Assembly (NCBI GenBank): GCA_022414725.1
Contig: CM039464.1
Coordinates: 45,790,312-45,854,311, forward strand
Direction: 5' to 3'
DNA: 64,000 nt
DNA from: Microglena sp. YARC
Lineage: Eukaryota; Chlorophyta; Chlorophyceae; Chlamydomonadales; Chlamydomonadaceae
Of this stretch, positions 20,836-62,610 are shown one piece after another. The stretch's first letter is position 1, and every line of letters starts with the position of its first letter. A model generated the notes under the pieces. It saw only the letters and a program-made list of their open reading frames with translations. It was not told the DNA's origin and searched no databases. The position numbers and the translations under genes were made by a program.

Positions 20836-21167
20836 TCCCCAGCCGCCGTCTCTGCTCTGGGTCTCCAGCTTTTAGACCGTGCAGTCAGAGCTGGCTGGGT
20901 GCACGTCGCCGCCGCACTGTTTGACGATCTGCTGGGCCTGTGCGACGTCTCGATGAAAGCCGTTCTATCTAGTCCCTACCTATGTCACCCACTCCTCCAC
21001 TCCGCCGTGCTCAGCACCAGCATCAACATGGTGGAGCTGGTGCGACAGCGCACAGACCAGCACGGGTGCAGTATCTCCTGGGACCTTCCGGATGCCCTTG
21101 GCTTCTCCCCCATGCACTTGGCTACCCAGATGGAGGAGCTGAACCTCCTCTGGGAGCTGCTCTCCAG
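20836..21167 (+). CDS. SBP-like gene, ankyrin-repeat exon
   Basis: Exon between CTTCTCCACAG and GTATTG, entering in phase 0 and leaving in phase 2. It encodes two ankyrin-like helix-turn-helix units, HPLLHSAVLSTSINMVELV and LGFSPMHLATQMEELNLL, preceded by an amphipathic helical segment rich in Ala and Leu. Ankyrin repeats mediate protein contacts. In SBP proteins of the SPL1/7 and CRR1 group they lie C-terminal to the conserved domain seen in the previous exon, so the order agrees. The 3' edge of this exon with its donor is copied three more times in the following intron. Confidence 0.72.
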
Positions 21168-21712
21168 GTATTGGGAGGGGCGAGGGGGTAGGCGTGGGGT
21201 GCTTGTGTGTGTCTATGTGTGTGTTCGTTTGTGTATTTCTGCCTGTCCCTTGGCATCAACCCCATGCATTTGGCTACCCAGATGGACGAGCTGAACCTTC
21301 TCTGGGAGCTGCTCTCCAGGTATTGGGAGGGGCGAGGGGGTAGGCGTGGGGTGCTTGTGTGTGTGTGTGTTAGTTTGTGCATTTCTGCCTGTCCCTTGGC
21401 AACACCCCCATGCATTTGGCTACCCAGATGGACGAGCTGAACCTTCTCTGGGAGCTGCTCTCCAGGTATTGGGAGGGGCGAGGGGGTAGGGGTGGGGTGC
21501 TTGTGTGTGTCTATGTGTGTCTGTGTGTGTGTTAGTTTGTGTATTTCTGCCTGTCCCTTGGCATCACCCCCATGCACTTGGCTACCCAGATGGACGAGCT
21601 GAACCTCCTCTGGGAGCTGCTCTCCAGGTTTTGGGAGGGGCGAGGGGGTAGGGGTGGGGTGCTTGTGTGTGTGTCTATGTGTGTTCGTTTGTGTATTTCT
21701 GCCTCTCTCCAG
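21168..21712 (+). repeat. tandem duplication of exon 3' edge plus splice donor
   Basis: Starting inside the preceding exon, a unit of 146-162 bp is repeated: coding edge (ATGCA(C/T)TTGGCTACCCAGATG ... GGAGCTGCTCTCCAG), then the donor G(G)T(A/T)TTGGGAGG, then GT-rich intron. Donors stand at 21168, 21320, 21466 and 21628. Only the first copy belongs to a complete exon. No acceptor precedes the others. Confidence 0.9.
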
Positions 21713-21784
21713 GTATTCAGATACCGATGCCACACACACAAGCAAACACGCCCCCCCCCCCCCCCCCCCCCCCCCTCCCCCCTC

Positions 21785-21983
21785 CCCCTCCACGTACCCA
21801 GACCTCGATGCGCCCTGCACATGGCAATCCAAGGGCAGGTTACTCCGGCTGAGATGCTGGCAGCAACACACACAACAAGCAAACACACACACACACACAC
21901 CTCCCCCTCCACGTACCCAGACACCGATGCCGCCCTGCACATGGCAATCCAAGGGCAGGTTACTCCGGCTGAGATGCTGGCGG

Positions 21984-22030
<47 letters not shown>

Positions 22031-22648
22031 CCCCCTCCACGTACCAAACACCGATGCCGCCCTGCACATGGCAATCCAAGGGCAGGTCACTCCGGCTGAG
22101 ATGCTGGCGGCCACACACACACAAGCAAACACACACACACACCCTCCCCCTCCACGTACCCAAACACCGATGCCGCCCTGCACATGGCAATCCAAGGGCA
22201 GGTTACTCCGGCTGAGATGCTGGCGGCCACACACACACAAGCAAACAAACACACACACACACTCCCCCTACAGGTACCCAGACACCGATGCCGCCCTCCA
22301 TGTGGCAGTTCAAGGGCAGGTTACTCTGGCTGAGATGCTAGCTGCCAGACACACACAAGCAAACACACACACCCTTCCCCCCTCCCTTCCCCCCTCCCCC
22401 TACAGGTACCCAGACACCGATGCCGCCCTCCATGTGGCAGTTCAAGGGCAGGTTACTCTGGCTGAGATGCTAGCTGCCAGACACACACAAGCAAACACAC
22501 ACACCCTTCCCCCCTCCCCCTACAGGTACCCAGACACCCGATGCCCGCCCTCCATGTTGGCAGTTCAAGGGCAGGTTACTCTGGCTGAGATGCTAGCTGC
22601 CAGACACACACAAGCAAACACACACACCCTTCCCCCCTCCCCCTACAG
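21785..22648 (+). repeat. tandem duplication of exon 5' edge plus splice acceptor
   Basis: Seven extra copies of the next exon's first 70-75 bp (GTACCCAGACACCGATGCCG onward) alternate with (CA)n spacers at 115-130 bp spacing. The first four have CCTCCACGTACCC and lack an AG. The last three (joining at 22274, 22406 and 22526) carry a full CCCTACAG acceptor like the true one at 22648. None has a donor, so they can only act as decoys. Confidence 0.9.
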
Positions 22649-22953
22649 GTACCCTGACGCCGATGCCGCCCTCCATGTGGCAGTTCAAGGGCAGGTTACT
22701 CCGGCTGAGATGCTGGCGGCCAGAAGATTTTGCATGAGCCAAGAAGCAGAGGACATCCTATCATCGAGTTTGAATCATTGCGTAGCTGATGCTTTAGCTG
22801 ATGAACAGAGCGTCTCCAAGGGCGATGAACCGGGCATCTCCAAGGTTGATGAACAGGGCGTCTCCAAGGGCGTTGAACCGGGCATTTCCAAGGTTGATGA
22901 ACAGGTCGTCTCCAAGGGCGTACACTGCGCCTCAAAGGGCGTCGAAGTGGCAG
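22649..22953 (+). CDS. SBP-like gene, third ankyrin-like unit and acidic repeat tail
   Basis: Exon between CCCTACAG and GTAGGT, entering in phase 2 (completing AG/G, Arg) and leaving in phase 1. It begins YPDADAALHVAVQGQVTPAEML, which continues the ankyrin stretch of the previous exon, followed by a helical CMSQEAEDIL segment. Then comes a five-fold degenerate repeat alternating DEQ(S/G)VSKG and EPGISKV (22800-22945), which is acidic and probably disordered. The spliced reading from the previous exon is exact despite 1.5 kb of duplicated splice sites between them. Confidence 0.7.
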
Positions 22954-23096
22954 GTAGGTTTCACTGTTTCCTTTTGGCAGGTTACTCCGACTGCGTAGCT
23001 GATGCTTCAGCTGATGAACGGAGCTTTCATCCGGAGCCGTAATCTTGAAGTTGGTTCCATTATTGCTTGCATTAGCAGTAGAAAACGGACCTTTGC

Positions 23097-26000
23097 CCCC
23101 CCCATCTAGGGACCCAGCGCCCCCCAGGATCCCTGTAATGGCGGAGCCCCCCCTTCTAGGGACCCAGGCCCCCCAGGATCCCTGTAATGGCGGAGCCCCC
23201 CATTCTAGGGACCAGCGACCCCAGGATCTCTGTGATGGCTGAGCCCCCCTTCTAGGACCCAGCGCCCCCCAGGAACCCTGTGATGGCGGAGCCCCCCCTT
23301 CTAGGGACCCAGCGCCCCCCAGGATCCCTGTGATGGCGGAGCCCCCTTCTAGGGACCCAGCGCCCCCCAGGATCCCTGTGATGGCTGAGCCCCCCCTTCT
23401 AGGGACCCCCAGCGCCCCCCAGGATCACTGTAATGGCGGAGCCCCCCCTTCTAGGTACCCAGCGCCCCCAAGGATCCCTGTGATGGCCGAGCCCCCCCTT
23501 CTAGGGACCCAGCGCCCCCAGGATCACTGTAATGGCGGAGCCCCCCCTTCTAGGGACCCAGCGCCCCCCAGGATCACTGTAATGGCGGAGCCCCCCCTTC
23601 TAGGGACCCAGCGCCCCCCAGGATCACTGTAATGGCAGAGCCCCCTTCTAGGGACCCAGCGCCCCCAGGATCCCTGTGATGGCGGAGCCCCCCCTTTTGG
23701 GGACCCTGCGCCCCAGGACCCCTGTTATGGCTGAGCCCCCCTTCTAGGGGCCCAGCGCCCCCAGGATCACTGTAATGGCGGAGCCCCCCTTCTAGGGACC
23801 CAGCGCCCCCCAGGACCCCTGTTATGGCTGAGCCCCCCCTTCAAGGGCCCAGCGCCCCCCAGGATCACTGTAATGGCGGAGCCCCCCCTTCTAGGACCCA
23901 GCGCCCCCCAGGATCACTGTAATGGCTGAGCCCCCCCTTCTAGGGGCCCAGCACCCCCCAGGATCACTGTAAATGGCGGAGCCCCCCCTTCTAGGGACCC
24001 AGCGCCCCCCAGGATCACTGTAATGGCGGAGCCCCCCCTTCTAGGGACCCAGCGCCCCCCAGGATCCCTGTGATGGCGGAGCCCCCCCTTCTAGGGACCC
24101 AGCGCCCCCCAGGATCACTTTAATGGCGGAGCCCCCCCCCCTTCTAGGGACCAGCGCCCCCCAGGATCACTGTAATGGCGGAGCCCCCCCTTCTAGGGAC
24201 CCAGCGCCCCCCAGGACCCTGTTATGAGCTGAGCCCCCCCTTCTAGGGATCCAGCGCCCCGAAGGACCCCTGTTATGGCAGAGCCCCCCCTTCTAGGGAC
24301 CCAGCGCCCCCAGGATCACTGTAATGGCAGAGCCCCACCTTCTAGGGACCCAGCGCCCCCCAGGACCCCTGTTATGGCTGAGCCCCCCCTTCTAGGGCCC
24401 AGCGCCCCCCAGGATCACTTTAATGGCGGAGCCCCCCCTTCTAGGGACCCAGCGCCCCCCAGGATCACTGTAATGGCGGAGCCCCCCCTTCTAGGGACCC
24501 AGCGCCCCCCCAGGACCCCTGTTATGGCTGAGCCCCCCCTTCTAGGGACCCAGCGCCCCCCAGGATCACTTTAATGGCGGAGCCCCCCCTTCTAGGGACC
24601 CAGCGCCCCCCAGGATCACTGTAATGGCTGAGCCCCCCCTTCTAGGGCCAGCACCCCCCAGGATCACTGTAATGGCGGAGCCCCCCCTTCTAGGGACCCA
24701 GCGCCCCCAGGATCACTGTAATGGCGGAGCCCCCCTTCTAGGGACCCAGCGCCCCCAGGACCCCTGTTATAGCTGAGCCCCCCCTTCTAGGGACCCAGCG
24801 CCCCCCAGGATCACTGTAATGGCGGAGCCCCCCCTTCTAGGGACCCAGCGCCCCCCAGGATCACTGTAATGGCAGAGCCCCACCTTCTAGGGACCCAGCG
24901 CCCCCCAGGACCCCTGTTATGGCTGAGCCCCCCTTCTAGGGGCCCAGCGCCGCCCAGGATCACTTTAATGGCGGAGCCCCCCCTTCTAGGGACCCAGCGC
25001 CCCCCAGGATCACTGTTATCGGAGCCCCCCCTTCTAGGGACCCAGCGCCCCCCCAGGACCCCTTTATGGCTGAGCCCCCCCTTCTAGGGACCCAGCGCCC
25101 CCCAGGATCACTTTAATGGCGGAGCCCCCCCTTCTAGGGACCCAGCGCCCCCAGGATCACTGTAATGGCGGAGCCCCCCTTCTAGGGACCCAGCGCCCCC
25201 CAGGACCCCTGTTATGGCTGAGCCCCCCTTCTAGGGACCCAGCGCCCCCAGGATCACTGTAATGGCGGAGCCCCCCCTTCTAGGGCCCAGCGCCCCCAGG
25301 ACCCCTGTTATGGCTGAGCCCCCCCTTCTAGGACCCAGCGCCCCCCAGGATCACTTTAATGGCGGAGCCCCCCCTTCTAGGGACCCAGCGCCTCCCAGGA
25401 TCACTGTAATGGCGGAGCCCCCCTTCTAGGGACCCAGCGCCCCCCCAGGACCCCTGTTATGGCTGAGCCCCCCTTCTAGGGACCCAGCGCCCCCCAGGAC
25501 CCCTGTTATGGCGGAGCCCCCCCTTCTAGGGACCCAGCGCCCCCCAGGATCACTGTAATGGCGGAGCCCCCCTTCTAGGGACCCAGCGCCCCCCAGGATC
25601 ACTGTAATGGCGGAGCCCCCTTCTAGGTACCCAGCGCCCCCCAGGACCCCTGTTATGGCTGAGCCCCCCCTTCTAGGGGCCAGCGCCCTCCAGGATCACT
25701 GTAATGGGGGAGCCCCCCCTTCTAGGTACCCAGCGCCCCCCAGGATCCCTGTGATGGCTGAGCCCCCTTCTAGGGGCCCAGCGCCCCAGGATCACTGTAA
25801 TGGCGGAGCCCCCCCTTCTAGGGACCCAGCGCCCCCCAGGACCCCTGTTATGGCTGAGCCCCCCCTTCTAGGGACCCAGCGCCCCCCAGGATCACTGTAA
25901 TGGCGGAGCCCCCCTTCTAGGGACCCAGCGCCCCCCAGGATCACTGTAATGGCGGAGCCCCCCCTTCTAGGGACCAGCGCCCCCCAGGATCCCTGTGATG

Positions 26001-29000
26001 GCGGAGCCCCCCCTTCTAGGGACCCAGCGCCCCCCAGGATCCCTGTGATGGCGGAGCCCCCCCTTCTAGGGACCCAGCGCCCCCCAGGACCCCTGTTATG
26101 GCTGAGCCCCCCCTTCTAGGGGCCAGCGCCCCCAGGATCACTGTAATGGCGGAGCCCCCCTTCTAGGGACCCAGCGCCCCCCAGGATCACTGTAATGACG
26201 GAGCCCCCCCTTTTAGGGACCCAGCGCCCCCCAGGACCCCTGTTATGGCTGAGCCCCCCCTTCTAGGGACCCAGCGCCCCCCAGGATCCCTGTTATGGCG
26301 GAGCCCCCCCTTCTAGGGGCCCAGCGCCCCCCAGGACCTCTGTTATGGCTGAGCCCCCCCTTCTAGGGGCCCAGCGCCCCCCAGGATCACTGTAATGGCG
26401 GAGCCCCCCCTTCTAGGGACCCAGCGCCCCCCAGGATCCCTGTGATGGCTGAGCCTCCCCTTCTAGGGACCCAGCGCCCCCCAGGATCACTGTAATGGCG
26501 GAGCCCCTCCTTCTAGGGACCCAGCGCCCCCCAGGATCACTGTAATGGCGGAGCCCCCCCTTCTAGGGACCCAGCGCCCCCAGGACCCCTGTTATGGCTG
26601 AGCCCCCCCTTCTAGGGGCCCAGCGCCGCCCAGGATCACTTTAATGGCGGAGCCCCCCCTTCTAGGGACCCAGCGCCCCCCAGGATCACTGTAATGGCGG
26701 AGCCCCCCTTCTAGGGACCCAGCGCCCCCCAGGACCCCTGTTATGGCTGAGCCCCCCCTTCTAGGGACCCAGCGCCCCCCAGGATCACTTTAATGGCGGA
26801 GCCCCCCTTCTAGGGACCCAGCGCCCCCCAGGATCACTGTAATGGCGGAGCCCCCCCTTCTAGGGACCCAGCGCCCCCAGGACCCCTGTTATGGCTGAGC
26901 CCCCCCTTCTAGGGACCCAGCGCCCCCCAGGATCACTGTAATGGCGGAGCCCCCCCTTCTAGGGGCCCAGCGCCCCCCAGGACCCCTGTTATGGGCTGAG
27001 CCCCCCTTCTAGGGACCCAGCGCCCCCCAGGATCACTTTAATGGCGGAGCCCCCCTTCTAGGGACCCAGCGCCTCCCAGGATCACTGTAATGGCGGAGCC
27101 CCCCTTCTAGGACCCAGCGCCCCCCAGGACCCCTGTTATGGCTGAGCCCCCCCTTCTAGGGACCCAGCGCCCCCCAGGACCCCTGTTATGGCGGAGCCCC
27201 CCCTTCTAGGGACCAGCGCCCCCAGGATCACTGTAATGGCGGAGCCCCCCTTCTAGGGACCAGCGCCCCCCAGGATCACTGTAATGGCGGAGCCCCCCCT
27301 TCTAGGTACCCAGCGCCCCCAGGACCCCTGTTATGGCTGAGCCCCCCCTTCTAGGGGCCAGCGCCCTCCAGGATCACTGTAATGGGGGAGCCCCCCTTCT
27401 AGGTACCCAGCGCCCCCAGGATCCCTGTGATGGCTGAGCCCCCCCTTCTAGGGGCCCAGCGCCCCCCAGGATCACTGTAATGGCGGAGCCCCCCCTTCTA
27501 GGGACCCAGCGCCCCCAGGACCCCTGTTATGGCTGAGCCCCCCCTTCTAGGGACCCAGCGCCCCCAGGATCACTGTAATGGCGGAGCCCCCCCTTCTAGG
27601 GACCCAGCGCCCCCCAGGATCACTGTAATGGCGGAGCCCCCCCTTCTAGGGACCCAGCGCCCCCCAGGATCCCTGTGATGGCGGAGCCCCCCTTCTAGGG
27701 ACCCAGCGCCCCCCAGGATCCCTGTGATGGCGGAGCCCCCCCTTCTAGGGACCCAGCGCCCCCAGGACCCCTGTTATGGCTGAGCCCCCCCTTCTAGGGG
27801 CCCAGCGCCCCCCAGGATCACTGTAATGGCGGAGCCCCCCCTTCTAGGGACCCAGCGCCCCCCAGGATCACTGTAATGACGGAGCCCCCCTTCTAGGGAC
27901 CCAGCGCCCCCCAGGACCCCTGTTATGGCTGAGCCCCCCCTTCTAGGGACCCAGCGCCCCCCAGGATCCCTGTTATGGCGGAGCCCCCCTTCTAGGGGCC
28001 CAGCGCCCCCCAGGACCTCTGTTATGGCTGAGCCCCCCCTTCTAGGGGCCCAGCGCCCCCAGGATCACTGTAATGGCGGAGCCCCCCCTCTAGGGACCCA
28101 GCGCCCCCCAGGATCCCTGTGATGGCTGAGCCTCCCCTTCTAGGGACCCAGCGCCCCCCAGGATCACTGTAATGGCGGAGCCCCTCCTTCTAGGGACCCA
28201 GCGCCCCCCAGGATCACTGTAATGGCGGAGCCCCCCCTTCTAGGGACCCAGCGCCCCCAGGATCCCTGTGATGGCGGAGCCCCCCCTTCTAGGGACCCAG
28301 CGCCCCCCAGGATCCCTGTGATGGCGGAGCCCCCCCTTCTAGGGACCCAGCGCCCCCCAGGATCACTGTAATGGCGGAGCCCCCCCTTCTAGGGACCCAG
28401 CGCCCCCCAGGATCCCTGTGATGGCGGAGCCCCCCCTTCTAGGGACCCAGCGCCCCCCAGGATCCCTGTGATGGCTGAGCCCCCCCTTCTAGGGACCCAG
28501 CGCCCCCAGGACCCCTGTTATGGCTGAGCCCCCCCTTCTAGGGGCCCAGCGCCCCCCAGGATCACTCTAATGGCGGAGCCCCCCTTCTAGGGACCCAGCG
28601 CCCCCCAGGATCACTGTAATGGCGGAGCCCCCCCTTTTAGGGACCCAGCGCCCCCCAGGACCCCTGTTATGGCTGAGCCCCCCCTTCTAGGGACCCAGCG
28701 CCCCCCAGGATCACTGTAATGGCGGAGCCCCCCCTTTTAGGGACCCAGCGCCCCCCAGGATCACTGTAATGGCGGAGCCCCCCCTTCTAGGGACCCAGCG
28801 CCCACCAGAATCACTGTAATGGCTGAGCCCCCCTTCTAGGGACCCAGCGCCCCCCCGAATCCCTGTGATGGCGGAGCCCCCCCTTCTAGGGACCCAGCGC
28901 CCCCCAGGATCCCTGTGATGGCAGAGCCCCCCCTTCTAGGGACCCAGCGCCCCCCAGGACCCCTGTGATGGCTGAGCCCCCCCTTCTAGGGGCCCAGCGC

Positions 29001-29015
29001 CCCCCAGGACCCCTG
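23097..29015 (-). repeat. 5.9-kb minisatellite, 50-bp unit, about 118 copies, with higher-order period
   Basis: The unit is TGGCGGAGCCCCCCCTTCTA plus GGGACCCAGCGCCCCCCAGG plus ATCACTGTAA. Two main variants alternate irregularly (GGATCACTGTAATGGCGGAG and GGACCCCTGTTATGGCTGAG). Rare variants recur about 1.68 kb apart, showing a higher-order repeat. On the minus strand the unit matches the terminal hairpin of element R6, and the array directly abuts the body of an R6 copy at 29025. It lies wholly inside the intron between exons ending at 22953 and starting at 31016. Confidence 0.97.
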
Positions 29016-29024
29016 TTATGTATG

Positions 29025-29290
29025 TTTGTCCACCCGTTCGACCACATTAAGCCAAGTGTCTAAACTAACTGTCTCGTACCCTGGCTTCAGCCCGCTGCAC
29101 TCGATTCCGTTGCCAAAGTCTGTGATAGCCAACACTCTCCGCCAATTTTCCACCTGCAGCTCTAATAGCCAACACTCAAATTTTCCATGAGCAGCTCCGA
29201 TAGCCAACACTCTCCGCCAATTTTCCACCTTCAGCTCTGACAGCCAACACTCAAATTTTCCGCGTGCAGCTTCGATAGCCGACACGTTCC
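29025..29290 (-). mobile_element. R6 element body adjoining the minisatellite
   Basis: Read on the minus strand it contains GTGTTGGCTATC, GGCAACGGAATCGAG and GAGACAGTTAGTTT, in the same order as the R6 copy at 62975. A 50-60 bp segment (GAAAATT...GTGTTGGCTATC) is repeated four times. The GC-rich 3' end of the element lies exactly where the 50-bp array begins. The open minus frame here is not taken as a gene. Confidence 0.8.
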
Positions 29291-29318
29291 ACCATTATCA
29301 TGCGTCGCTCGCACCGCC

Positions 29319-29517: not shown

Positions 29518-29619
29518 ACTGGCATGTTTCATGAAAATGCAGCACAAATTGTCAATCTTATATATTTTTACAGTTATAAGATATAGTTGGACAACACCGG
29601 ACGACACAGATTTCCACGA

Positions 29620-31015: not shown

Positions 31016-31298
31016 GCAGTGGATACATAAGCAAAAGAAGATACAGTGCAAGCAGCAGTTGCAGAAGCAGCGCCAGCAGCTCCCACAGCTTCAGCAGCAA
31101 CAGAAACAACATCAGCTTGCCTTCTGCGATTCCTGTGGTTCCTGTAGCTCCTGTGATCAAGCAGGAGGAGTGCCATCCACTTGTCAGCAATGACATCCCG
31201 CGCTCAGCGTTTGCGTCAGTGATTTTGGGCTTCAGGGGGAAGGAGTACCAGTACCTGATGTTCAATGCTGGCAGGTCAAAAACCCTACACGTCATATG
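31016..31298 (+). CDS. SBP-like gene, Ser-rich exon after the large intron
   Basis: Acceptor TGTGCTTCGCAG, donor ATATG/GTGAGC. It enters in phase 1, which matches the exon ending at 22953, and leaves in phase 2. It begins with a Ser/Arg-rich stretch (YSASSSCRSSASSSHSFSS), then a Pro/Val segment and an ordered-looking end (RSAFASVILGFRGKEYQYLMF). No domain is recognised. Membership in the gene rests on phase and strand. The intron before it would be about 8 kb and would contain the 5.9-kb minisatellite and the 26-bp array. The 3' 120 bp with the donor is duplicated 210 bp downstream. Confidence 0.5.
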
Positions 31299-31466: not shown

Positions 31467-31515
31467 GATACCTCATGTCTGGCAGGACAAAACCCTACAC
31501 GTCCTATGGTGAGCC
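31372..31515 (+). repeat. degenerate duplicate of exon 3' edge plus donor
   Basis: GCGTTAGCGTCGGTGATTGG...GGCAGGACAAAACCCTACAC...CTATG/GTGAGCCTTAGA mirrors the end of the exon at 31298. The middle is replaced by a poly-G run of about 40 bp (31426-31465), which destroys the reading frame. Confidence 0.85.
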
Positions 31516-33089: not shown

Positions 33090-33612
33090 ACTGTCCTATT
33101 CGTTATTGCAGTGCTGCTGTCTGTCCTGTTCACTGCTATGTGCCGACTGTCCTGCTCACTGTTATGTGCTGACCGTCCTAGTCACTCTTGCAGTGCTGCT
33201 GTCTGTCATGCTCACTGTAATGTGCTGACTGCTGACTGTCCTAGTCACTCATGCAGTGCTGCTGTCTGTCCTGCTCACTGTAATGTGCTGACCGTCCTAG
33301 TCACTGTTATGTGCTGACTACTGACTGTCCTAGTCACTCTTGCAGTGCTACTGTCTGTCCTGCTCACTATAATGTGCTGACCGTCCTAGTCACTGTTATG
33401 TGCTGACTGCTGACTGTCCTAGTCACTCTTGCAGTGCTGCTGTCTGTCCTGCTCACTGTAATTTGCTGACCGTCCTAGTCGCTGTTATGCGCTGACTACT
33501 GACTATCCTATTCACTCTTGCAGTGCTGCTGTCTGTTCTGCTCATTGTAATGTGCTGACCGTCCTAGTCGCTGTTATGTGCTGACTACTGACTGTCCTAT
33601 TCACTCTTGCAG
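33090..33612 (+). repeat. tandem array carrying copies of the next exon's acceptor edge
   Basis: Units of 60-105 bp contain CACTCTTGCAGTGCTGCTGT followed by CTGTCCTGCTCACTGTAATG and CTGACCGTCCTAGTCACTG. The true exon begins with the same TCTTGCAG/TGCTGCTG sequence at 33613, so the array repeats the acceptor with the first coding bases about six times. Confidence 0.88.
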
Positions 33613-33660
33613 TGCTGCTGCTGCTATCTTTGGGGCCATCTTCCACCACTCCATGATCAA
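33613..33660 (+). CDS. SBP-like gene, 48-nt exon (tentative)
   Basis: Acceptor CACTCTTGCAG, donor GTAAGTATG (a strong consensus), phase 2 at both ends, matching the exon ending at 31298 (TG/T, Cys). It encodes about 16 residues (AAAAIFGAIFHHSMIK), which are hydrophobic. Being a multiple of three, it could be skipped without a frame change. Support is limited to splice sites and phase. Confidence 0.4.
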
Positions 33661-53686: not shown

Positions 53687-53689
53687 GGA

Positions 53690-54210
53690 GTTGGAATTAA
53701 GATGTGGATGAGTTTGAATTAAGATGTGGATGCCTGAAGTTTGAATAACATGTGAATGCCTGGAGTTTGCATTAAGATGTGGATGCCTGAAGTTTGAATT
53801 CAGATGTGGATGAGTTTGTGCTAAGATGTGGATGAGTTTGAATTGAGATGTGGATGAGTTTGTTTTCAGATGTGGATGAGTTTGTGTTCAGATGTGGATG
53901 CCTGGAGTTTGAATTCAGATGTGGATGAGTTTGAATTAAGATGTGCATGAGTTTGAATTAAGAAGTGGATGAGTTTGAACTGAGATGTGGATACCAGGAG
54001 TTTGAATGAAGACGTGGATGGGTTTGAATTAAGATGCGCATGGGTTTAAATTAAGATGTGGATCAGTTTGAATTAAGATGTGGATGCCTGGAGTTTGAAT
54101 TAAGATGCCGATGAGTTTAAATTAAGAATTAAGATGTGGATGCCTGAAGTTTGAATTGAGATGCCGATGAGTTTGAATTAATATGTGGATGCCTACCCAG
54201 CGCCCTCCTC
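53690..54210 (+). repeat. 20-bp tandem repeat after the stop codon
   Basis: About 25 degenerate units of GAATTAAGATGTGGATGAGTTT type. It includes a second copy of the exon's last coding bases (GCCCAGCGCCCTCCTCATGC at 54197 and about 53654), so the array begins inside the terminal exon. Confidence 0.88.
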
Positions 54211-54257
54211 ATGCCAAAAGAGTGAGGAGTTTGAATTTTTCTACTTATCATATACTC

Positions 54258-54346
54258 GTATAGATAGATAGATTGATATATATACATGTAGATATATTTG
54301 TAGAGAGATATTGGTAGATAGATAGAGAGAGATTTTGGTTGGTAGG

Positions 54347-54387
<41 letters not shown>

Positions 54388-54395
54388 TGGAAGAT
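54258..54395 (+). repeat. (GATA)n microsatellite
   Basis: Interrupted then pure GATA repeats; open minus frames are artefacts. Confidence 0.95.
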
Positions 54396-54614
54396 AGATA
54401 CATTACAAAGCATACTTGTGTACTTGTATCTGTATAATATATATGGTATAAGTTGTGTAGGCACAAATCCATATATTGCAATGTGCACAAGAATCCAACC
54501 CTACAGCCATTAATATATTCTTGCCCCTCTCCCTTCATCCCCCCCCCCGTCCTTCCTCCCTCCCCCATCACTTCCTCCCTCCCTCCAAGAATCCAATCTT
54601 ACTGTTGTCCATCC

Positions 54615-54800
54615 CAGGGTAATTCAAAGCGCGCGCTTTTGCGCTTTTGAGCGCTGACTTGTCGACCCCCTCTGCGCTTTAAGCGCAGATTTTTGCAACC
54701 CCTTGCGGGCGCTGCAAGCAATTTTTGCGCTTTTTGCACTAAAAGGCGCAGTTTTTTTGTTTTCAAGAGCGCCAAAGCGCTGGCCAATTTGGCCATTCAG
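54615..54800 (-). mobile_element. CAGGGTA-family MITE, one end degraded
   Basis: CAGGGTAATTC at 54615, then GCGC-rich interior to GCGCTGGCCAATTTGGCCA, where the ATTGACC...TACCCTG end of the sister copies is missing. Confidence 0.75.
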
Positions 54801-55021
54801 ACGGTTGACTCAGATTCCTTACAGTTGCTTTTCATATTTCCAATACATATAATTTACCCTTCAGGGTTTAGGAAATAAGCATACATGCAGGCTTCATCAT
54901 TGTCAGTACTTATATTTGCAAAAGTTGGGGGCCTGCTTGCTGGACATTGAGTCACTGCCCGAGAGGTCCAGCGATCTTTCAGATGGGGCCCCCATTGGTA
55001 CAAGTGCTAGTAGACATATTT

Positions 55022-55115
55022 AAGGTGTGTGACATTTCCCTTGATTAGGGGGTATATCACGACACTGGCTGGCTTTACTGGTCTTATCAGCTGTTACCAT
55101 TAAATAAAGTCAACT
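55022..55115 (+). repeat. direct repeat with hairpin, copy 1
   Basis: GTGTGTGACATTTCCCTTGA, TTAGGGGGTATATCAC, CTGGTCTTATCAGCTG and TTACCATTAAAT. It matches 56745-56845 in the same orientation, near the ends of the recombinase element. Confidence 0.85.
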
Positions 55116-55357
55116 GCACTATCTAGCTTGTAAGTCCAGACTGTTCAGGTCTGTCTTTGTGCTACTACCATATGCAAGAGTCACTGCAATTTCACACACA
55201 CGTGCCCTCAGGATATAAAAATCAGTCCCACTAAGTAAAGGAAAGGAGTGTAAAGGGGGACTGGGGGAAAGGTGTAGGAGTAAGGAGCATGTACAGTACA
55301 GCAGGCTTGGCTAAGTGATGGGGTATCAAAAGAAAGAAAGAGGGGGGAAAGCTAGGC

Positions 55358-55594
55358 TCAGAGGCTGGAGGCAAAGTTCAACTTGACCGAGAGGTCTGGG
55401 ATCAGATATGCCTTAATGGCATCTGATTTCCACCTACCTTGAGTTCTAATGGTCTCTAGATCTGCCCCATTAGCCCAAGCTGCTATTACACCTCCCCGTC
55501 TGAGGCTGTGCATGGCAAACCTAGCTGGATCTATGTCCAGTTTGGGGTGAGAGTGTGCAATAGCAGTGAGAAAAGACTTCAGTCTATAGGACAA
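55358..55594 (-). pseudogene. tyrosine recombinase, HxxR...W...Y catalytic end
   Basis: A 78-residue frame. HSLRRGG gives His29 and Arg32, GRWKS gives Trp55 in the place of the second His, and the nucleophile is Tyr63 in AIKAYL. The spacing HxxR-(~23)-W-(8)-Y is normal for the family. This part is intact, although the whole ORF is broken upstream. Confidence 0.8.
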
Positions 55595-55618
55595 AGCCTG
55601 ACCTGAAAGAAGGGGGGA

Positions 55619-55810
55619 CTACACTGACAAAAGTAGAGCAATAAGCTCACTCCTTTTAAGGAGGTCAAAGAAACCCATCACTAGCCAAGCTGCATCTTTA
55701 GTAAACACGTCCTCCATGTGGGGCAGCAGGGTTTTCAGCTTCCTCATGGTCTCCAGACACACAAACATGAGGGACTTACAACACTGCCCTCTTTGCCACA
55801 TGCAACTCAC
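55619..55810 (-). pseudogene. tyrosine recombinase, first catalytic Arg region
   Basis: WLVMGFFDLLKRSELIALL matches the helix with the first catalytic Arg (xxxGxRxSELxxL). Out of frame with both neighbours. Confidence 0.6.
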
Positions 55811-55964
55811 TTAGGCCCTGGAACACCCTAAAGGCCTTATAGATCTGTCCCGCAACACTGGAAACCAGAGTGCTAAGGGTCCAGTCCCTGGGCCTGTGCC
55901 ATTCAGCTAGTGCTGACATGGTTGTAATGGTGGCCGGTTGGTTATGACCTCCTGCCCAACCCAT
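55776..55964 (-). pseudogene. tyrosine recombinase, core-binding region
   Basis: A helical segment TMSALAEWHRPRDWTLSTLV and GQIYKAFRVFQGLSEL, consistent with the SAM-like N-terminal domain of tyrosine recombinases. It ends by frameshift into the next fragment. Confidence 0.55.
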
Positions 55965-56183
55965 GACCAGCTTTAACTAGCATCAAAGGCACTTGTTCCT
56001 TGGGGCCAGGAGGGAGTGCATTCTGCTCAGTAAGCAAGTAACTTCAGCCATGCACTTGGTGTCGCTTAATATCACTTGCATAAGTGTCTTGTGAGCTTCC
56101 GTACAGCCAAGGTAGAGCCCTCCAACATCCCTAACTCCCTGGCCCTTGTTGGCCTTGGAAGCTAGTGATGTGGAGAGACACTC

Positions 56184-56387
56184 TTATAGTGTGCAGGCTG
56201 AGCACTTGAATGTACCACAGGACATGGCATTCCTGCCCAAGCTGATGCACTGGGGGTGGCTGTGCTGGCTGCAGCTGGTGCACCTAAGCATCCTTCCCTT
56301 GGTGCCTTGGTAGATGGTACATCCTATGGGGGGGTGGGAGGAAGATATGAAAGGGGTAAGCTTCTGGGCAGGTCTGATCACAAGCAA
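56184..56387 (-). pseudogene. PHD-like zinc finger between RNase H and recombinase
   Basis: The minus frame reads CTIYQGTKGRMLRCTSCSQH then SHPQC and ends FKCSAC. The spacing CxxC-x4-HxxC-...-CxxC is that of a PHD finger (C4HC3). The expected second Cys of the first pair is replaced (CTIY). In cellular proteins PHD fingers read histone H3 tails. Here it may have served target-site choice, which is inference. Confidence 0.55.
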
Positions 56388-56623
56388 AGTGTGTCAGTGG
56401 GTGAGGCCACCCAAGCATATAGGAGATCCACAGTTTTTCCTAATGCCGATAATGGGATGTTATCATCCCTGATACGTGTTATTCTGGAACCCCCCTTATA
56501 CACAGCTGAGACAGCTTGGACCTTATCCATGTAGCACAAGGCTGACGTTCCTGCCAGTCTATGTGCCCAGTGCTGCAAGCAAATCATGCAAGCTTCGAGT
56601 TCCAGGACACCTATTGTGCACAT
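56378..56623 (-). pseudogene. RNase H C-terminal fragment
   Basis: VLELEACMICLQHWAHRLAG carries the catalytic Glu helix. It is followed by YMDKVQAVSAVYKGGSRITR, which fits the second Asp strand and the xxaixKGxSR turn of DIRS-type RNase H. Confidence 0.65.
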
Positions 56624-56744
56624 GTACCCCTACCGACTCATGCCACTCCAGCTCCAGAGCCTTGTCCCCAGACTCCAGGTCACTTAGTGTGCCCTTGTTA
56701 GAATTATTTAAAGTGTAGGCTGGACTTTGTAAACGTTTTAGCTC

Positions 56745-56845
56745 TTGTGTGTGTGATATTTCCCTTAATTAGGGGGTATATCACACCATTGGCTGGCCGT
56801 ACTGGTCATATCAGCTATGTTACCATTTAAATATCTGTGAGATTT
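56745..56845 (+). repeat. direct repeat with hairpin, copy 2, inside the RNase H region
   Basis: GTGTGTGATATTTCCCTTAA, TTAGGGGGTATATCACAC and CATATCAGCTATGTTACCAT. GTGTGATAT and ATATCACAC can pair. It lies between the two halves of RNase H, so it is a later insertion or part of a rearranged copy. Confidence 0.85.
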
Positions 56846-57007
56846 AAGCCTGTGCCTTGTAAGTGGTATGGTAGGTGGTGACAGGGTATAGGGCATCAAA
56901 CAAGAGTTGGATAGTGCAGGTATCCCCAAGGGTGTGACCTTTGGGGAAGAGCTATCCATCTACCTATTTTTTACCTGTCACAGGGTTGTTTCAGGGGTGG
57001 TGAGTGA

Positions 57008-57283
57008 TCAAGGTAACTTGCTCATACAACCATTTACCCCAGTGAAGGAAGTGTCTACTAGAAACCTAGGACAAGGGACACCTAATTCATCTGCCCAGTA
57101 TTGCCATCTCTCTATATTCAGCTTGGTTTCAGTTGAGTTGAACCACTTTTCCCTGTCTTCCAAGTCATGGGGTTGGAACATCTCAACCATCAGTCTCCCA
57201 CAAAGGGTTGTGATTTGAATGCAGCTATGAATGTGAGTGGGTACTGTAGGAAGACAAATTCTAGCAATAGCTGAACGACGCAA
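57008..57283 (-). pseudogene. RT-RNase H junction fragment
   Basis: The minus frame contains ITTLCGRLMVEMFQ, then LNIERWQYWADELG and FLVDTSFTGVNG. This corresponds to the end of the RT connection (LxGxLxxa...W) and the first catalytic Asp strand of RNase H (xxTDASxxGxGa in DIRS-like elements). The frame is interrupted after residue 90. Confidence 0.55.
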
Positions 57284-57670
57284 ACTTCAAGGCGAACAGG
57301 GCTGCTGTGCAAAGGCACTGAGCAGAAAAGGAAGGCAAAGAAGGAGATCGCGATGGTCGACTACGAGTCGCGGAGCAGAGGGGGAGAGGGAAGGAACTCA
57401 ATAACCTCACCTTTCTTCTCGATCTGGCTGACTGTGCACTTGATTAAATACCGGGCAGGACAGTACTGCTGTGAAAACACTGGCGGTGGTTATTCCTGGT
57501 TTTGCCCGGGGGTTTACGGGTATTTGAAATATGAAGGCGTCCTGCGGAATCTTACGTCGCGCGTCGAATACTCCATTTCACCCACTACTGTGTGGGAAAT
57601 GCGGCATTCGAAGTACCATGGTCCATCCACCCCCTCCCTGTTTCTGCTCCTGCCCATACGGGGGCCACGC

Positions 57671-57865
57671 CAGGGTACTACAAAGCGCGCGCGGCAGCGC
57701 AATTTCGTGCACGCTTTTTGAGCCCCACTGTGCGTTTCGCGCAATTATTTCAACTCCCTGTGGGCGCAGCGCGCAGTTTTTGCGCTTTTTGCACCACAAA
57801 GCGCTGACCAATTTGATGTTTCTGCGCTTTAACCACTGACCAATTTGACAAAATGTAGTACCCTG
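57671..57865 (-). mobile_element. CAGGGTA-family MITE
   Basis: CAGGGTACTAC...GTAGTACCCTG, 195 bp, with duplication GGCCACGC/AGCCACGC (57663-57670, 57866-57873), 7 of 8. GCGC-rich interior in reverse. Confidence 0.92.
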
Positions 57866-58075
57866 AGCCACGCTTAACTTCACTTGTTAGTTAAAAAAAA
57901 GTCACACCCCTTTTCTGAGAATTGACAGAATTTTTGACTGAAAACGTGGAACTGCGAACTGCCAACTGCAAGATCCAAATCCAAATCATTCGCTGAATTG
58001 CCATAGGCCCAACCTTTTCACTCATGCTCATGGCCACAGGTCTGAACTCAACAACTCAGCAACTCTAAACTCAAC

Positions 58076-58145
58076 TCAACGCAACTCAACTCAACTCAAC
58101 TCAACTCAACTCAACTCAACTCAACTCAACTCAACTCAACAAATC
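58076..58145 (+). repeat. (AACTC)n pentamer microsatellite
   Basis: About twelve ACTCA units, degenerating into AATCGCAACTCGCAACTC. Confidence 0.95.
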
Positions 58146-58229
58146 GCAACTCGCAACTCAACAACCCCCAACTGAACAAACACAAAAAAGACCCAAAGCC
58201 AGCTGATTAGGGGCAGTCAATCTAGTTCA

Positions 58230-58460
58230 TGCGCATGGCCACAGGACTAACAAAACTTATCACTAAAGCACGAGCTCAGGGCCCCCGTTGGTAAAATGAT
58301 TGTTCAGGGGTTCTGTTCATCAATGCCTTTTCTTTCACAATTCATTGTCTAGGGGGTTCTGTTCATCAGTGCCTTTTCTTTCACAATTCATTGTTTAGGG
58401 GTTCTGTTCTTCAATGCCTTTTCTTTCACAATTTATCTTCTTGTCACGCCTGCGCAATAT
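58230..58460 (-). repeat. dispersed repeat R4 with a triplicated segment
   Basis: The minus strand reads GGGGGCCCTGAGCTCGTGCT at one end. The GCATTGATGAACAGAACCCC segment is present three times (about 45-bp steps), an internal tandem duplication within a dispersed element. Confidence 0.82.
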
Positions 58461-58513
58461 CCTTTATCTTATTTCGCCTGCCCCTGTACTGTGACATACA
58501 GTCATACATACAG

Positions 58514-58769
58514 GTCTCGCAACCGCCGTCCTGCACCCCATTACGGCTCCGAGAGGACAGGCAGCAGTGACAACGAGTTAGAACAGAGGCTGCATGCCCA
58601 AATGAGCAAACAACCGGTGCCTAAGCCGAGTCATGCGCATGGTATCAGTGTGGGCGGCTCATTGTACTCAGGTCAGTCAGCGGACGAGTCTGGGCAGCAA
58701 CGCCCATGGCCGAGGATGCAACGCCAGAAAACAAGAGCGCCTATGAACAGAGGTGGGGAGGCAAGCTAA
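58514..58769 (+). CDS. terminal exon of an unidentified gene
   Basis: Acceptor CATACATACAG. The frame enters in phase 2 and ends TAA 58767-58769. It encodes about 84 polar residues (HYGSERTGSSDNELEQRLHA, GGSLYSGQSADESGQ, RMQRQKTRAPMNRGG) and is probably disordered. Its composition and the SGQxxDxxGQ motif recall the terminal exon at 52751-53686, but the stop there separates them. Upstream exons were not found, and the recombinase element lies in between. Confidence 0.5.
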
Positions 58770-58776
58770 TTTGACT

Positions 58777-59153
58777 AACATGACATAACATAACACTGAC
58801 ATAACATAACATAACATAACATATAATATAATATAATGTAATATAATATAATATAATATAATACCGGTGTAATATAATATAATACAATATAATATAATAT
58901 AATATAATATAATATAATATAATATACTATAATATAATATAATATAATATAATATAATATAATATAATATAATAAATAAATATAATATAATATAATATAA
59001 TGTAATGTAATAAGATATAATATAATATAATATAATATAATATAATATAATATAATATAATATAATATGATATGATATGATATGATATGATATGATATGA
59101 TATAATATAATATAATATGATATGATATAATATAATAACAATACAATACAATT
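58777..59153 (+). repeat. (ATAAT)n / (ACATA)n pentamer microsatellite
   Basis: About 70 units of ATAAT with ATGAT and ACATA variants, starting right after the stop codon of the preceding exon. Confidence 0.98.
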
Positions 59154-59164
59154 CAATGCTGTGC

Positions 59165-59330
59165 TGTGCCTCGCAGGGTGGTCAGGGAGAGGGGAGGGGG
59201 GGGGGGGGGGGGGGGGGGGAGGGGAGGGAAGGGGGTGATGGAGAGGTAAGGGGAGGGAGGGGAGAGGAGAGGAGAGTGTGTGAGGAGGGTGGGGGAGAGA
59301 GGGGAGAGGGGGGGAGGGCTGTGCCTTGCT
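59165..59330 (+). repeat. G-rich purine tract
   Basis: Nearly pure G/A on the + strand with a poly-G run at 59196-59219. Quadruplex-prone. No gene. Confidence 0.9.
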
Positions 59331-59339
59331 GTGCTAAGC

Positions 59340-59829
59340 TGAGCTAACGTTCTGTGTTTTTATTTTTTCTGAATTCCAACGCATGTGCTTTCCATGCCCC
59401 GTTTCATGACAGCTCCTGGAATCTTGAAGAGCCCTTATACTCATGGATTTCCTGTGCTGTGCTGTGCTGTGCTGTGCTGTGTTGCGCTGTGCTGTGCTAA
59501 CGTTCTCTGTTTTCCTTGCCCCATTTCATGGCAGCCGTCGGGGTCATGAAGGGCCCTTACAACTCATGGATCCAATGTGCTGTGCTGTGCTGTGCTAATC
59601 TCTATAATCTCTATTTTCCTTGCCCCATTTCATGGCAGCTGCTGGAGTCATGAAGGGCCTTTACAACTCATGGATCCAATGTGCCCTGCTGTGCTGTGCT
59701 GTGCTGTGCTTTTGCTGTGCTTTTGCTGTGCTGTGCTGTGCTGTGCTGTGTTTTTGCTGTGCTGTGCTGTGCTGTGCTGTGCAGTGCTGTGCTAACGTTC
59801 TCTATTTTCCTTGCCCCATTTCATGGCAG
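59340..59829 (+). repeat. tandem copies of exon 5' edge plus acceptor with (GCTGT)n
   Basis: CATTTCATGGCAG followed by the first 45-50 bp of the next exon occurs with its upstream CTATTTTCCTTGCCCC tract. Copies join at 59413, 59535, 59639 and, complete, at 59830. They are separated by TGTGCTGTGC pentamer runs. Only the last copy continues into a full exon with a donor. Confidence 0.88.
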
Positions 59830-59903
59830 CCGCTGGAGTCATGAAGGGGCCTTACAACTCATGGATCCAATGCCGGAAGGGCACTGAGGCTGCTATGGTG
59901 CAG
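59830..59903 (+). CDS. small internal exon
   Basis: 74 nt between TTCATGGCAG and GTGTGTCC. One frame is open with 24 residues (GVMKGPYNSWIQCRKG then TEAAMVQ), leaving in phase 0. No family assignment. It may belong to the MRS2-type gene downstream or to another + gene. Conservation of the edge in four copies supports it being a real exon. Confidence 0.4.
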
Positions 59904-60007
59904 GTGTGTCCTGTGCAAGATGTATGATGCATTGGTGTGTCGGTGCAGGTGTGTCCTGTGGAGATTCATGATGTGTCGGTGCAGAATTATCCTGTGCCAG
60001 GGTGGTA

Positions 60008-60085
60008 GGCCTGGGCAAGTTGGGTTGGGCAAGTCCCTTTAGCCTATTTGGCCTACCCCTGGACTGTAACATACATGCATACAGG
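60008..60085 (-). repeat. dispersed repeat R4, fragment
   Basis: The minus strand reads TACAGTCCAGGGGTAGGCCA and AATAGGCTAAAGGGACTTGC. Similar minus fragments lie at 18700-18760 and 49785-49820. Confidence 0.75.
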
Positions 60086-61130
60086 TCTAAGGGGTAATAT
60101 GTCTGAAGGGTCGCAGGTCTGAAGGGTCGTAGGTAGAGTGACAAGTGTGAGGGGTTTAGGAGGTGACGCTGGCAACGTCCTTGTCACTCTACCAACGACC
60201 CTTTGGACCTACGGCCCTTTAGACATACGACCCTTTAGACCAGTGGCCCTGTAGACCTACGACCCTGTGGACCTGCGCCCCTTTGGACCTACGGCCCTTT
60301 AGACATACGACCCTTTAGACCAGCGGCCCTGTAGACCTACGGACCTGTGGACCTGCGCCCCTTTGGACCTGCAACCCTTCAGACATGCCACCCTTTAGAC
60401 CTACGACCCTGTGGACTTGCGCCCCTTTGGACCTGCAACCCTTCAGACATGCCACCCTACATGCCACCCTTTAGACCAGCGGCCCTGTAGACCTACGACC
60501 CTGTGGACCTGCGCACCTTCGGACCTGCAACCCTTCAGACATGCCACCCTTAAGATCAACAACCATTTAGACATGCCACCCTGTAGACATGCCACCCTAT
60601 AGACATGCCACCCTTGCGATCAACAACCCTGTAGACATGCCACCCTGTAGACATGCCACCCTTGAGATCAACAACCATTTAGACATGCCACCCTGTAGAC
60701 ATGCCACCCTGTAGACATGCCACCCTTGAGATCAACAACCATTTAGACATGCCACCCTGTAGACATGCCACCCTTGAGATCAACAACCCTGTAGACATGC
60801 CACCATGTAGACATGCCACCCTTGAGATCAACAACCCTGTAGACATGCCACCCTGTAGACATGCCACCCTTGAGATCAACAACCATTTAGACATGCCACC
60901 CTGTAGACATGCCACCCTTGAGATCAACAACCATTTAGACATGCCACCCTGTAGACATGCCACCCTTGAGATCAACAACCCTGTAGACATGCCACCCTTG
61001 AGATCAACAACCATTTAGACATGCCACCCTGTAGACATGCCACCCTTAAGACGTACAACCCTTAGGACCCGCGACCCTTTAGACATGCCACCCTGTAGAC
61101 CTACGACCCTTTCTGGACAGGAGTTTTGTC
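60085..61130 (+). repeat. 18-45 bp minisatellite of GACATGCCACCCT units
   Basis: A long array of GACATGCCACCCTGTAGACA, GCCACCCTTGAGATCAACAA and (earlier) GACCTACGACCCTGTGGACC units. Both strands stay open, which explains complementary 100-residue frames; none is a gene. Confidence 0.95.
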
Positions 61131-61169
61131 TAAACATACCTGTAGCTCCTGTCAGGTGAGCGCTGGCGT

Positions 61170-61335
61170 AGTGGTATGTATGTATGTGGTTGTTACAGTC
61201 CATGAGTAGGCCAAGTAGGCTAAAGAGACTTGCCCAACCGTGACAGGAGGGGCTAAAACGAAAAAGCACTGATGAACTGAACCCCAGACAATCGTTTTGC
61301 CGACAGGGGCCCTGAGTGCTACAGGGATAATTTAT
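61170..61335 (+). repeat. dispersed repeat R4, copy
   Basis: GTATGTGGTTGTTACAGTCC, AGTAGGCCAAGTAGGCTAAA, ACTTGCCCAACCGTGACAGG and CAGGGGCCCTGAGTGCTACA. Confidence 0.85.
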
Positions 61336-61556
61336 GGCGTGGTGGTGCGTTGCCTCTTGTTGATTATGTGTGATGGACCTGGATAAGTCTTCAAACTGTC
61401 TAGTCAGCTTAGTTTGCTCCCTGGTTTTGGTGGGTATGGCACGTGGGTTGGGTGGGGTTGGGGGTGGGAGGGGGTTGAAACTGGAAGACAGCCAGCAGCC
61501 TAGAGTTGGCTGGAGCCATGTAACCAAGTTCAAGTTCATGTTTCACGATTGACGAC

Positions 61557-61730
61557 CAGGGTATTATTAAGCGCACGCGGAAGCGCGATTTGGCGCACGC
61601 CTTTTGAGCCCTACTGCGCGTTTTACGCAGTTTTTTTCACCCCCCTGCGCTTTTTGCACTACAAAGCGCTGACCAATTTGACGTTGGGGCGCTTTAAGCG
61701 CTGACCAATTTGACAAAATGTAGTACCCTG
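61557..61730 (-). mobile_element. CAGGGTA-family MITE
   Basis: CAGGGTATTATT...TGTAGTACCCTG, 174 bp, with a perfect 8-bp duplication TTGACGAC (61549-61556, 61731-61738). Confidence 0.95.
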
Positions 61731-61941
61731 TTGACGACCTGCAAGTGCGCCATCTCATTGGGGTGTGATTTTGTAGGTCTCCTAAGGTGATTGCTGACAG
61801 TAGTCAGCTCACTGGGAGACCTAAAAATCTGCCGTACAGAAGCCACGCCACTCCCAGCTGTCTCCTGTACAGAAGCCACGCCACTTCCGGCTTTCTCCTA
61901 CAGCGAAGCCAAGCCAACTCTCAATACCCTATGGTGTGTAG

Positions 61942-62192
61942 GTGGAGCGCTCCACGCTAGTTTCTATGTATGGCGTGCAGCCACGCGACTTCCGTCTGTT
62001 CGACAGTGGCCCAAACAGGCAGGGCTACGGACTTCTGACTCGAGACAAGTGCATCATAGTGTACCTCGTGTACATCAAGGCGATTATTACGTCCGAGTTT
62101 GTACTGCTGGCCCCCCCGGAGGACGACCGCTCCACCACCTTCGTCCAGCGCTTCAAGGAGCGAATCCAAGTTGATGATGGTGACCTGCGCAG
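61942..62192 (+). CDS. MRS2: MRS2/CorA-type Mg2+ transporter, N-terminal region exon
   Basis: Exon between GGTGTGTAG and GTGGGT, entering in phase 0 and leaving in phase 2. The order of motifs, QPRDFRLFD, then LLTRDKCIIVYLVYIKAIIT, then EFVLLAPPED and FVQRFKERI, matches the start of the cytosolic or matrix domain of plant and yeast MRS2 proteins (PRDLRxxD...IxxRxxAIxxNxxxIKAIIxxxxVLLxDP...FVxxLxxRL). The Gly-Met-Asn pore motif and the two membrane helices lie farther C-terminal, outside the window. Start codon and targeting peptide are upstream and not identified. The exon's 3' edge with donor is copied twice in the following intron. Confidence 0.75.
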
Positions 62193-62610
62193 GTGGGTTT
62201 GTGTGTGTATGTGCGTGCGTGTGTGTAAGTGTGTGGGGGGGGCGAGAGAAAGGGACGAATGGTTACAAAAAGCAGCGACTAGTTTTGTCAAATATGCGTC
62301 ATCAGGCGGCAGTAGTAAGACCGTTCCGCCACCTTCGTCCAGCGCTTCAAGGAGCGCATCCAAGTTGATGATGGTGACCTGCGCAGGTGGGTTTGTGTGT
62401 GTAAATGTGTGTGTGTGTGTGTGGGTGGGGTGGGGTGGGGTGTGGGGGGGGGGGGGGGGGGGGGGTGAGAGAAAGGGACGAATGGTTACAAAAAAGCAGC
62501 GACTAGTTTTGTCAAATATGTGTCATCAGGCGGCAGTAGTAAGACCATTCCACCACCGTCGTCCACAGCTTTAAGGAGCGCATCAAAGTTGATAATGTTG
62601 ACCTGCGCAG
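62193..62610 (+). repeat. two extra copies of the MRS2 exon 3' edge plus donor
   Basis: Units of 194 and 224 bp contain the coding edge (CGTCCAGCGCTTCAAGGAGC...GACCTGCGCAG), the donor GTGGGTTTG, a GT-rich run and GAGAAAGGGACGAATGGTTA. Donors stand at 62193, 62387 and 62611. The third copy is more diverged and its frame differs. No acceptor precedes the extra copies. Confidence 0.92.

Follow-up and report, generated by a model that had tools for sequence, protein, structure and literature searches.

Minisatellite and satellite arrays occur in introns as tandem units. Duplication of an exonic AGGT segment is a route to a new intron (PMC3443670), and a single tandem duplication running across an intron-exon boundary has been reported in the potato RdRp gene, together with the detection of a new intron (PMC4974935). 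Here we describe a 64,000-nucleotide stretch of the green alga Microglena sp. YARC (C3:45790312-45854311, referred to below as the window; genome of 568 Mb in 2390 contigs) in which introns hold tandem copies of the edge of a neighboring exon together with its splice site, and we follow these exon-edge arrays into introns of other genes. Exon-edge copying is not confined to the window locus.

The reading that we favor, with a probability of roughly three in four, is that the arrays began as short tandem duplications straddling exon-intron junctions and were then enlarged as inner copies were amplified in the manner of a satellite, with the outermost splice sites used and the inner ones unused. 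A unit of about 170 bp would be duplicated across the junction, and because this unit would be shorter than the exon, the full exon would persist only as the outermost copy. Amplification among the inner copies would follow the seed duplication. Splicing would keep to the outermost donor and acceptor, leaving the mRNA unchanged, and the inner edges, most of them with an intact splice dinucleotide, would go unused and drift as intron. The intron would in this way lengthen from one or both ends, with donor-side and acceptor-side arrays meeting in mid-intron in a few introns.

Like intronic minisatellites and satellites, the arrays consist of tandem units with mostly common breakpoints, changes in copy number, and some homogenization of inner units; unlike them, the repeated unit includes coding sequence together with a splice site, and selection acts on one member of the array, the exon. 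The resemblance to AGGT intron gain is that tandem duplication copies splice sites and that the coding sequence stays the same when the outer sites are used, but a new intron is made in that model, whereas here existing introns appear to be lengthened by arrays over an existing junction. As in the potato RdRp gene, the copied unit crosses the intron-exon boundary and carries splicing signals; that case was a single event, whereas here copies occur in 23 of 36 introns, with up to eight copies per array, and a new intron is not generally inferred. An AG/GT within an intron also recalls the ratchet points of recursive splicing, but the copies described here appear to drift, with no sign of use in the DNA sequence.

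Exon-edge copies in the window and in sampled introns

Exon edges were tested by local alignment of the last or first 60 exon bases with the neighboring intron, using a score cut-off of 22; all window features are on the plus strand. The intron between exons D1 and A1 (21168-22648) carries arrays at both ends. The D1 coding exon (20836-21167) is the complete, outermost copy, and its 3' edge is copied downstream as three repeats of the last 60 exon bases, each with GT next to it, at 21260-21319 and 21406-21465 (both 95% identity) and at 21568-21627 (98%). The acceptor-side array (21794-22588) repeats the first 60 bases of the following exon seven times at 85 to 95% identity (21794-21852, 21913-21972, 22041-22099, 22156-22215, 22274-22333, 22406-22465, and 22526-22588), with a period of ~123 according to TRF, and the A1 coding exon (22649-22953) follows as the last and outermost copy. 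AG is kept in the three copies nearest the exon, and AC stands in the four farther ones. Read from the sequence, the two arrays meet at 21702-21736, where the end of the upstream exon edge (CTCTCCAG) is fused directly to sequence resembling the start of the downstream exon. Copies of the donor edge of A1 itself were not found in the 1500 bases downstream of that donor. The gene with D1 and A1 has five complete introns, two with donor-side copies and one with acceptor-side copies; one of the donor-side cases is new, being a weak copy at 17856-17898 of the exon ending at 17668 (score 25, 79%) that was absent from the initial annotation.

The same two exons are found in a paralogue, P1, at C3:8.859 Mb (L009, C3:8858.9-8859.2 kb, minus strand), 37 Mb from the window. 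Its intron of 302 bp contains two further upstream-edge copies, the last of which supplies the acceptor, and the adjacency of edges seen at 21702-21736 is the acceptor in this paralogue. The D1 exon and its counterpart have 75% DNA identity and 57% amino acid identity over 145 amino acids, in an alignment that extends into the intron, and the A1 exon has 62% identity over 39 amino acids. D1 has a weak match to Ank_2 (16.5 bits, below the Pfam cut-off of 27.3). About 66 kb from the paralogue, at C3:8.918-8.938 Mb (L011 and L012), lies another copy of it with many small indels, which may be a pseudogene or an unpolished duplicate in the assembly.

The initial annotation had listed six junctions with such copies, and four of them are clear: D1 (21167), A1 (22649), D3 (62192), and A3 (59830). 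D3 is the end of an MRS2-like magnesium-transporter exon (61942-62192), identified by a profile match (PF22099, 40.6 bits) and a genome search; the profile match covers 61942-62166, and 61942 is the start of the match rather than a proven exon start. Two donor-side copies of its 3' edge lie within 62329-62610, at 62329-62386 (98%) and 62551-62610 (87%). A3, the start of a putative exon, has two acceptor-side copies within 59535-59681, each of about 40 bases (59535-59577, 91%, and 59641-59681, 95%), and a weaker third at 59389-59448 (83%). The donor edge of a putative exon ending at 31298 (D2) has one weak, partial copy, of 40 bases, at 31469-31508 (93%, score 25). The sixth junction, the acceptor of a putative exon at 33613 (A2), does not belong with the others: neither the 60-base nor the 30-base exon test finds a copy there, and the 89-bp intronic array at 33212-33620 adjoins the acceptor while sharing only about 11 exon bases with it. 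The sequence supports D1, A1, and D3 as probable coding exons. Elsewhere in the window, TCTTATCCAG is common to the upstream exon end and the intron end at 17669-19120, possibly an exon-edge copy acting as acceptor; a 50-bp minisatellite of ~120 copies occupies 23097-29020; and a 306-bp tandem repeat of ~7 copies lies at the window start (1-2116).

Beyond the window, 36 modelled introns were sampled, 23 from CCT chaperonin genes and 13 from kinesin genes, all drawn from genes with both adjacent exons in profile hits, from which the junctions were modelled. The CCT genes were picked before any repeat in them had been inspected, and the eight kinesin genes after the profile list had revealed copies in other kinesins; none of the eight was among the flagged genes, and kinesin loci L053 to L057, selected for copies in profile rows, enter no count. 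The count also excludes CCT genes without adjacent exon pairs or sequence (e.g., C4:22.95 Mb and C2:59.95 Mb), the long single-frame hits L015 and L020, and two spurious CCT6 introns from spliced alignment, which were discarded. The genome scan for an excess of edge copies proposed in the initial annotation was thus made on a sample rather than on the whole genome, and the excess is present: copies occur in 23 of the 36 introns (13/23 CCT, 10/13 kinesin), at 12 of 35 donor edges and 19 of 36 acceptor edges, and no copy was detected in the other 13. Within the CCT set, donor-side copies are found in 7 introns and acceptor-side copies in 10. Two separate control runs comparing 60-base exon edges with introns of unrelated genes gave no score as high as the cut-off of 22 (0/884, best 17; 0/812, best 18). 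With regard to introner-type dispersed introns, whose sequences recur in introns of unrelated genes, the 0/884 result concerns exon edges set against introns of other genes. In 30 of the sampled introns, edge arrays cover 13,736 of 37,926 intron bases. A BLAST classification of arrays (15 junction spanning, 8 intronic, 0 exon only, and 0 touching both ends) was set aside in favor of direct alignment because it missed arrays that direct alignment detects. The abundance of arrays in the sample, their polarity, their unit size, and the freedom of inner copies from coding constraint are read directly from the DNA.

Polarity and growth of the arrays

The complete exon is outermost, as the initial annotation had stated. 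When exon ends were compared with the upstream intron and exon starts with the downstream intron, none of 36 tests matched (18 exons of 120 to 900 bp), whereas 26 of 60 tests on the expected side were positive (30 introns). Overlapping same-strand pairs of profile matches in three families point the same way, with 25 donor type, 10 acceptor type, and 2 other among 37 pairs, many of them from one array; the 35 typed pairs are copies of a longer master, and the other 2 are neighboring true exons with over-extended matches. This polarity had been taken as the sign of a special system, an interpretation that we abandon, since geometry alone forces it: a tandem duplication that is shorter than the exon and spans the junction leaves the exon body on one copy. 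Extra donors lack acceptors, and extra acceptors lack donors, for the same reason, the exon body staying on the outermost copy only. Whole-exon tandem duplication, as in mutually exclusive exons, does not fit, as far exon ends are absent from the neighboring introns (0/36).

Across 31 arrays with 94 copies, the spacing has a median of 171 bp (interquartile range, 131 to 201), and the exon part of the copied unit has a median of 71 bp, ranging from 26 to 129 bp, where 129 bp is the longest exon part in a copy by array median. The duplicated units cross the intron-exon boundary and carry the splice site. The exon breakpoint agrees within 6 bp in 15 of 22 multicopy arrays, and such common breakpoints suggest a single seed duplication for most arrays. 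The units are arranged head to tail, with homogenization among some inner units, as in satellites. Short tandem duplication is the mechanism to which these features point. A rival proposal, that the copies are false tandem repeats generated by long-read assembly, could draw on the indel-rich second copy of the paralogue but is extremely unlikely, given that the copies within an array differ from one another (mean copy-copy identity of 0.76 to 0.92 per array) and that similarly built arrays recur in unrelated genes across several contigs.

The initial annotation also proposed that introns grow by repeated copying from the exon edge, and the data do not bear this out. Copies farther from the exon are not significantly less like it (15 arrays; mean rho of -0.27; 9 negative and 6 positive; P = 0.14), and the nearest copies are slightly more alike, at 0.90, than copy and exon are, at 0.88 (15 arrays, P = 0.03). 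In one dynein gene, seven copies follow an exon, their ends spaced 165 to 170 bp apart, and in two dynein paralogues, 7 of 12 inner copies are 97 to 99% alike within their own gene while being only 85 to 92% like their own exon; inner copies closer to each other than to the exon argue for reamplification of inner units. The two paralogues differ in copy number (8 versus 4), where a match in the second gene 20 to 75 bases past the donor was treated as an intron self-match and not counted as a copy. Their filler looks homologous by eye, and their units align across the two genes at 75 to 90%. The dynein array therefore probably predates the gene duplication, and independent duplications at one junction were rejected on the same grounds. 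Arrays turn over between paralogues at the same intron positions: at two positions common to two CCT1 genes (C5:39.35 Mb and C3:22.89 Mb) the edge arrays differ, CCT1a having acceptor-side arrays of 4 and 5 copies and CCT1b having none and a donor-side array of 2.

As the initial annotation predicted, introns with edge copies are longer, with a median of 1314 bp (n = 20) compared with 790.5 bp (n = 10; P = 0.002), a difference part of which may reflect more room for matches in longer introns.

Preference for junctions

Random duplication would favor no position, and junctions nevertheless appear to be enriched. After each array was assigned to the edge it touched and each interior family was counted once, 10 of 31 testable windows at the first or last 60 intron bases showed amplification, compared with 4.9% of ancestral interior positions, a ratio of 6.6 (bootstrap 95% confidence interval [CI], 2.5 to 16; score 22; 36 introns). 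Intron-only edge windows were used for this estimate, which avoids bias from exon constraint. The ratio is 3.8 (CI, 1.1 to 8.9) for the 36 introns at a cut-off of 36 and 5.3 (2.1 to 12.4) for the first 30 introns at the lowest cut-off; for these 30 introns, it loses significance at the higher cut-offs of 36 (3.1; 0.8 to 6.9) and 44 (2.3; 0 to 7.2). The units also tend toward being centered on the junction, with a mean exon share of 0.47 (Kolmogorov-Smirnov P = 0.012 against a uniform distribution from 0.15 to 1).

These results would suit a process tied to exon-intron junctions, such as breaks at tracts beside splice sites, R-loops, or units of nucleosome size where exons end, that favors duplication there, a proposal that we hold only tentatively. 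On this view the arrays would bear the mark of that process and not of random slippage. The enrichment depends on collapsing the arrays, and low complexity or lack of specificity removed 41 of the 72 edge windows. The raw profile of duplicated 60-mers in the 23 CCT introns is flat (45% at the junction and 40 to 48% in the intron), because the arrays themselves fill the intron interior, and drops to 3% in the exon more than 90 bases from the junction. Taken by itself, this profile would point to duplication throughout the intron. Junction preference is plausible but unproven. The stronger statement, that this alga has junction-focused duplication in which ~170-bp junction-centered units are copied at most introns several-fold above the interior, with introns rebuilt by exon-edge copies from both ends and a spliceosome that ignores near-identical decoys, is a doubtful one, though it may yet prove correct. 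A keyword search of the open literature found no mutational mechanism for a junction preference.

Inner copies and splice-site choice

In 54 copies, mismatches between copy and exon amount to 11.6, 9.6, and 14.5% at codon positions 1, 2, and 3 and to 16.4% in the intron part (one CCT1a intron of the 23 introns, with an unclear frame, was left out). This spread across the codon positions matches a constrained outer exon with inner copies free of coding constraint, and it speaks indirectly against use of the inner copies; constraint on both would leave positions 1 and 2 nearly empty of mismatches. The splice dinucleotide is intact in 87 of 99 aligned copies (33/38 donor, 54/61 acceptor). The claim of the initial annotation that only outermost use keeps the reading frame holds almost without exception: inner-site use would preserve the frame without a stop in just 3 of 97 copies, so that almost only outermost use preserves the protein.

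Several points weigh against the account of seed duplication, inner amplification, and exclusive outermost use. Splice dinucleotides are kept at 88%, compared with 68 to 80% for flanking dinucleotides, although at some of the latter both copies are free to vary; the drift expectation from codon position 2 is 82%, and by that arithmetic the excess is not significant. The decoy sites thus do not appear to be purged, and their selective preservation appears likewise unsupported. Use of the outermost donor and acceptor is inferred from conservation and reading frame. In P1 and in KINc intron 3 (L060), an upstream-edge copy supplies the acceptor, so some copies are used. Mean copy-copy identity (0.85) is below copy-exon identity (0.88), so reamplification of inner units is not universal. 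The apparent enrichment at junctions is left unexplained by this account. Finally, the sample junctions were set by script and only a few by hand (the CCT7 intron 2 donor, the CCT6 intron 5 acceptor, and KINa), with the KINe intron 1 acceptor and KINf intron 2 uncertain.

The inner copies might instead be functional splicing elements, serving as ratchet points for recursive removal or as intron-defining buffers. Their retained dinucleotides, the two edge copies that act as acceptors, and the fact that exons with a final CAG have donor copies reading CAG/GT, which could act first as acceptor and then as donor, are compatible with such a role, but the codon-position pattern fits drift, dinucleotide retention is near its drift expectation, copy number differs between paralogues, and 13 of the 36 introns lack a detected copy. 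The two ends of an intron also pair no better with each other than with the ends of other introns, and a functional role is, on balance, unlikely. The pairing values (mean of -40.5 within the same intron, -42.2 with other introns, and -42.1 with shuffled ends) also led us to reject loop-out by intron-end pairing. In 34 sampled introns of at least 400 bp, the 5' side is G- and T-rich and the last 80 bases are C-rich (44% and 39%).

A further alternative is intron birth, in which tandem duplication of AG/GT-containing exon sequence would leave an intron between copies of one ancestral exon stretch. In P1 the intron finishes with a repeat of the last bases of the upstream exon (80% over 15 bases, P = 0.003), as does KINc intron 3 (73%, P = 0.010), and the window intron holds the fused edge pair at 21702-21736. 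In 33 introns, P1 and the window intron among them, the 5' and 3' splice regions resemble each other hardly more within introns (mean of 0.264) than between introns (0.251), and only 2 of the 33 reach P values of about 0.01. The hallmark of the AGGT model, splice regions that are copies of one exon stretch, is therefore not general; with the signature in just 2 of 33 introns, intron birth was rejected as the general origin of the arrays, an explanation we consider very unlikely. KINb intron 2 (L059), which starts with GTGCCACGG and is followed by an exon starting with GTGCCACCGG, hints at a common origin of its two splice regions.

Two observations concern CCT6. For most of its length, the EukProt protein P0002 matches the CCT6 protein of this genome at every residue. 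Among the named hits of this CCT6 protein, the highest identities after the near-identical P0002 and unnamed entries belong to green algae (e.g., Myrmecia, 75%, and Sanguina, 74%), while a plant entry with 68% identity ranks first by score. At C1:80990034-80990105 (L032), the end of a CCT6 exon with a donor-side edge array, P0002 lacks 24 residues that are found in its relative P0003 and in the genome, a gap that may represent misannotation or alternative donor use. Near C1 80991.59 kb, the outermost copy of a CCT6 exon is seemingly out of frame relative to P0002 by a small indel, possibly an assembly error.

The duplication mechanism is of a known kind; what is new, as far as could be seen, is its scale, the multicopy nature of the arrays, and their apparent concentration at junctions. 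A keyword search of the open literature, with most subscription papers outside its scope, recognized no report of genome-wide exon-edge arrays in introns. The arrays are a visible route of intron lengthening, and the two cases of an edge copy apparently turned acceptor connect this lengthening with the gain of introns through tandem duplication. A preference for junctions, if true, would require a mutational mechanism. If the sample is representative, about two-thirds of introns hold copies of their own exon edges, which amounts to a natural experiment on splice-site choice: the decoys are dense, have exon context and mostly intact splice dinucleotides, and would nearly all break the frame if used. 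The outermost sites might win over such decoys by exon definition, by the order of transcription, or by RNA surveillance.

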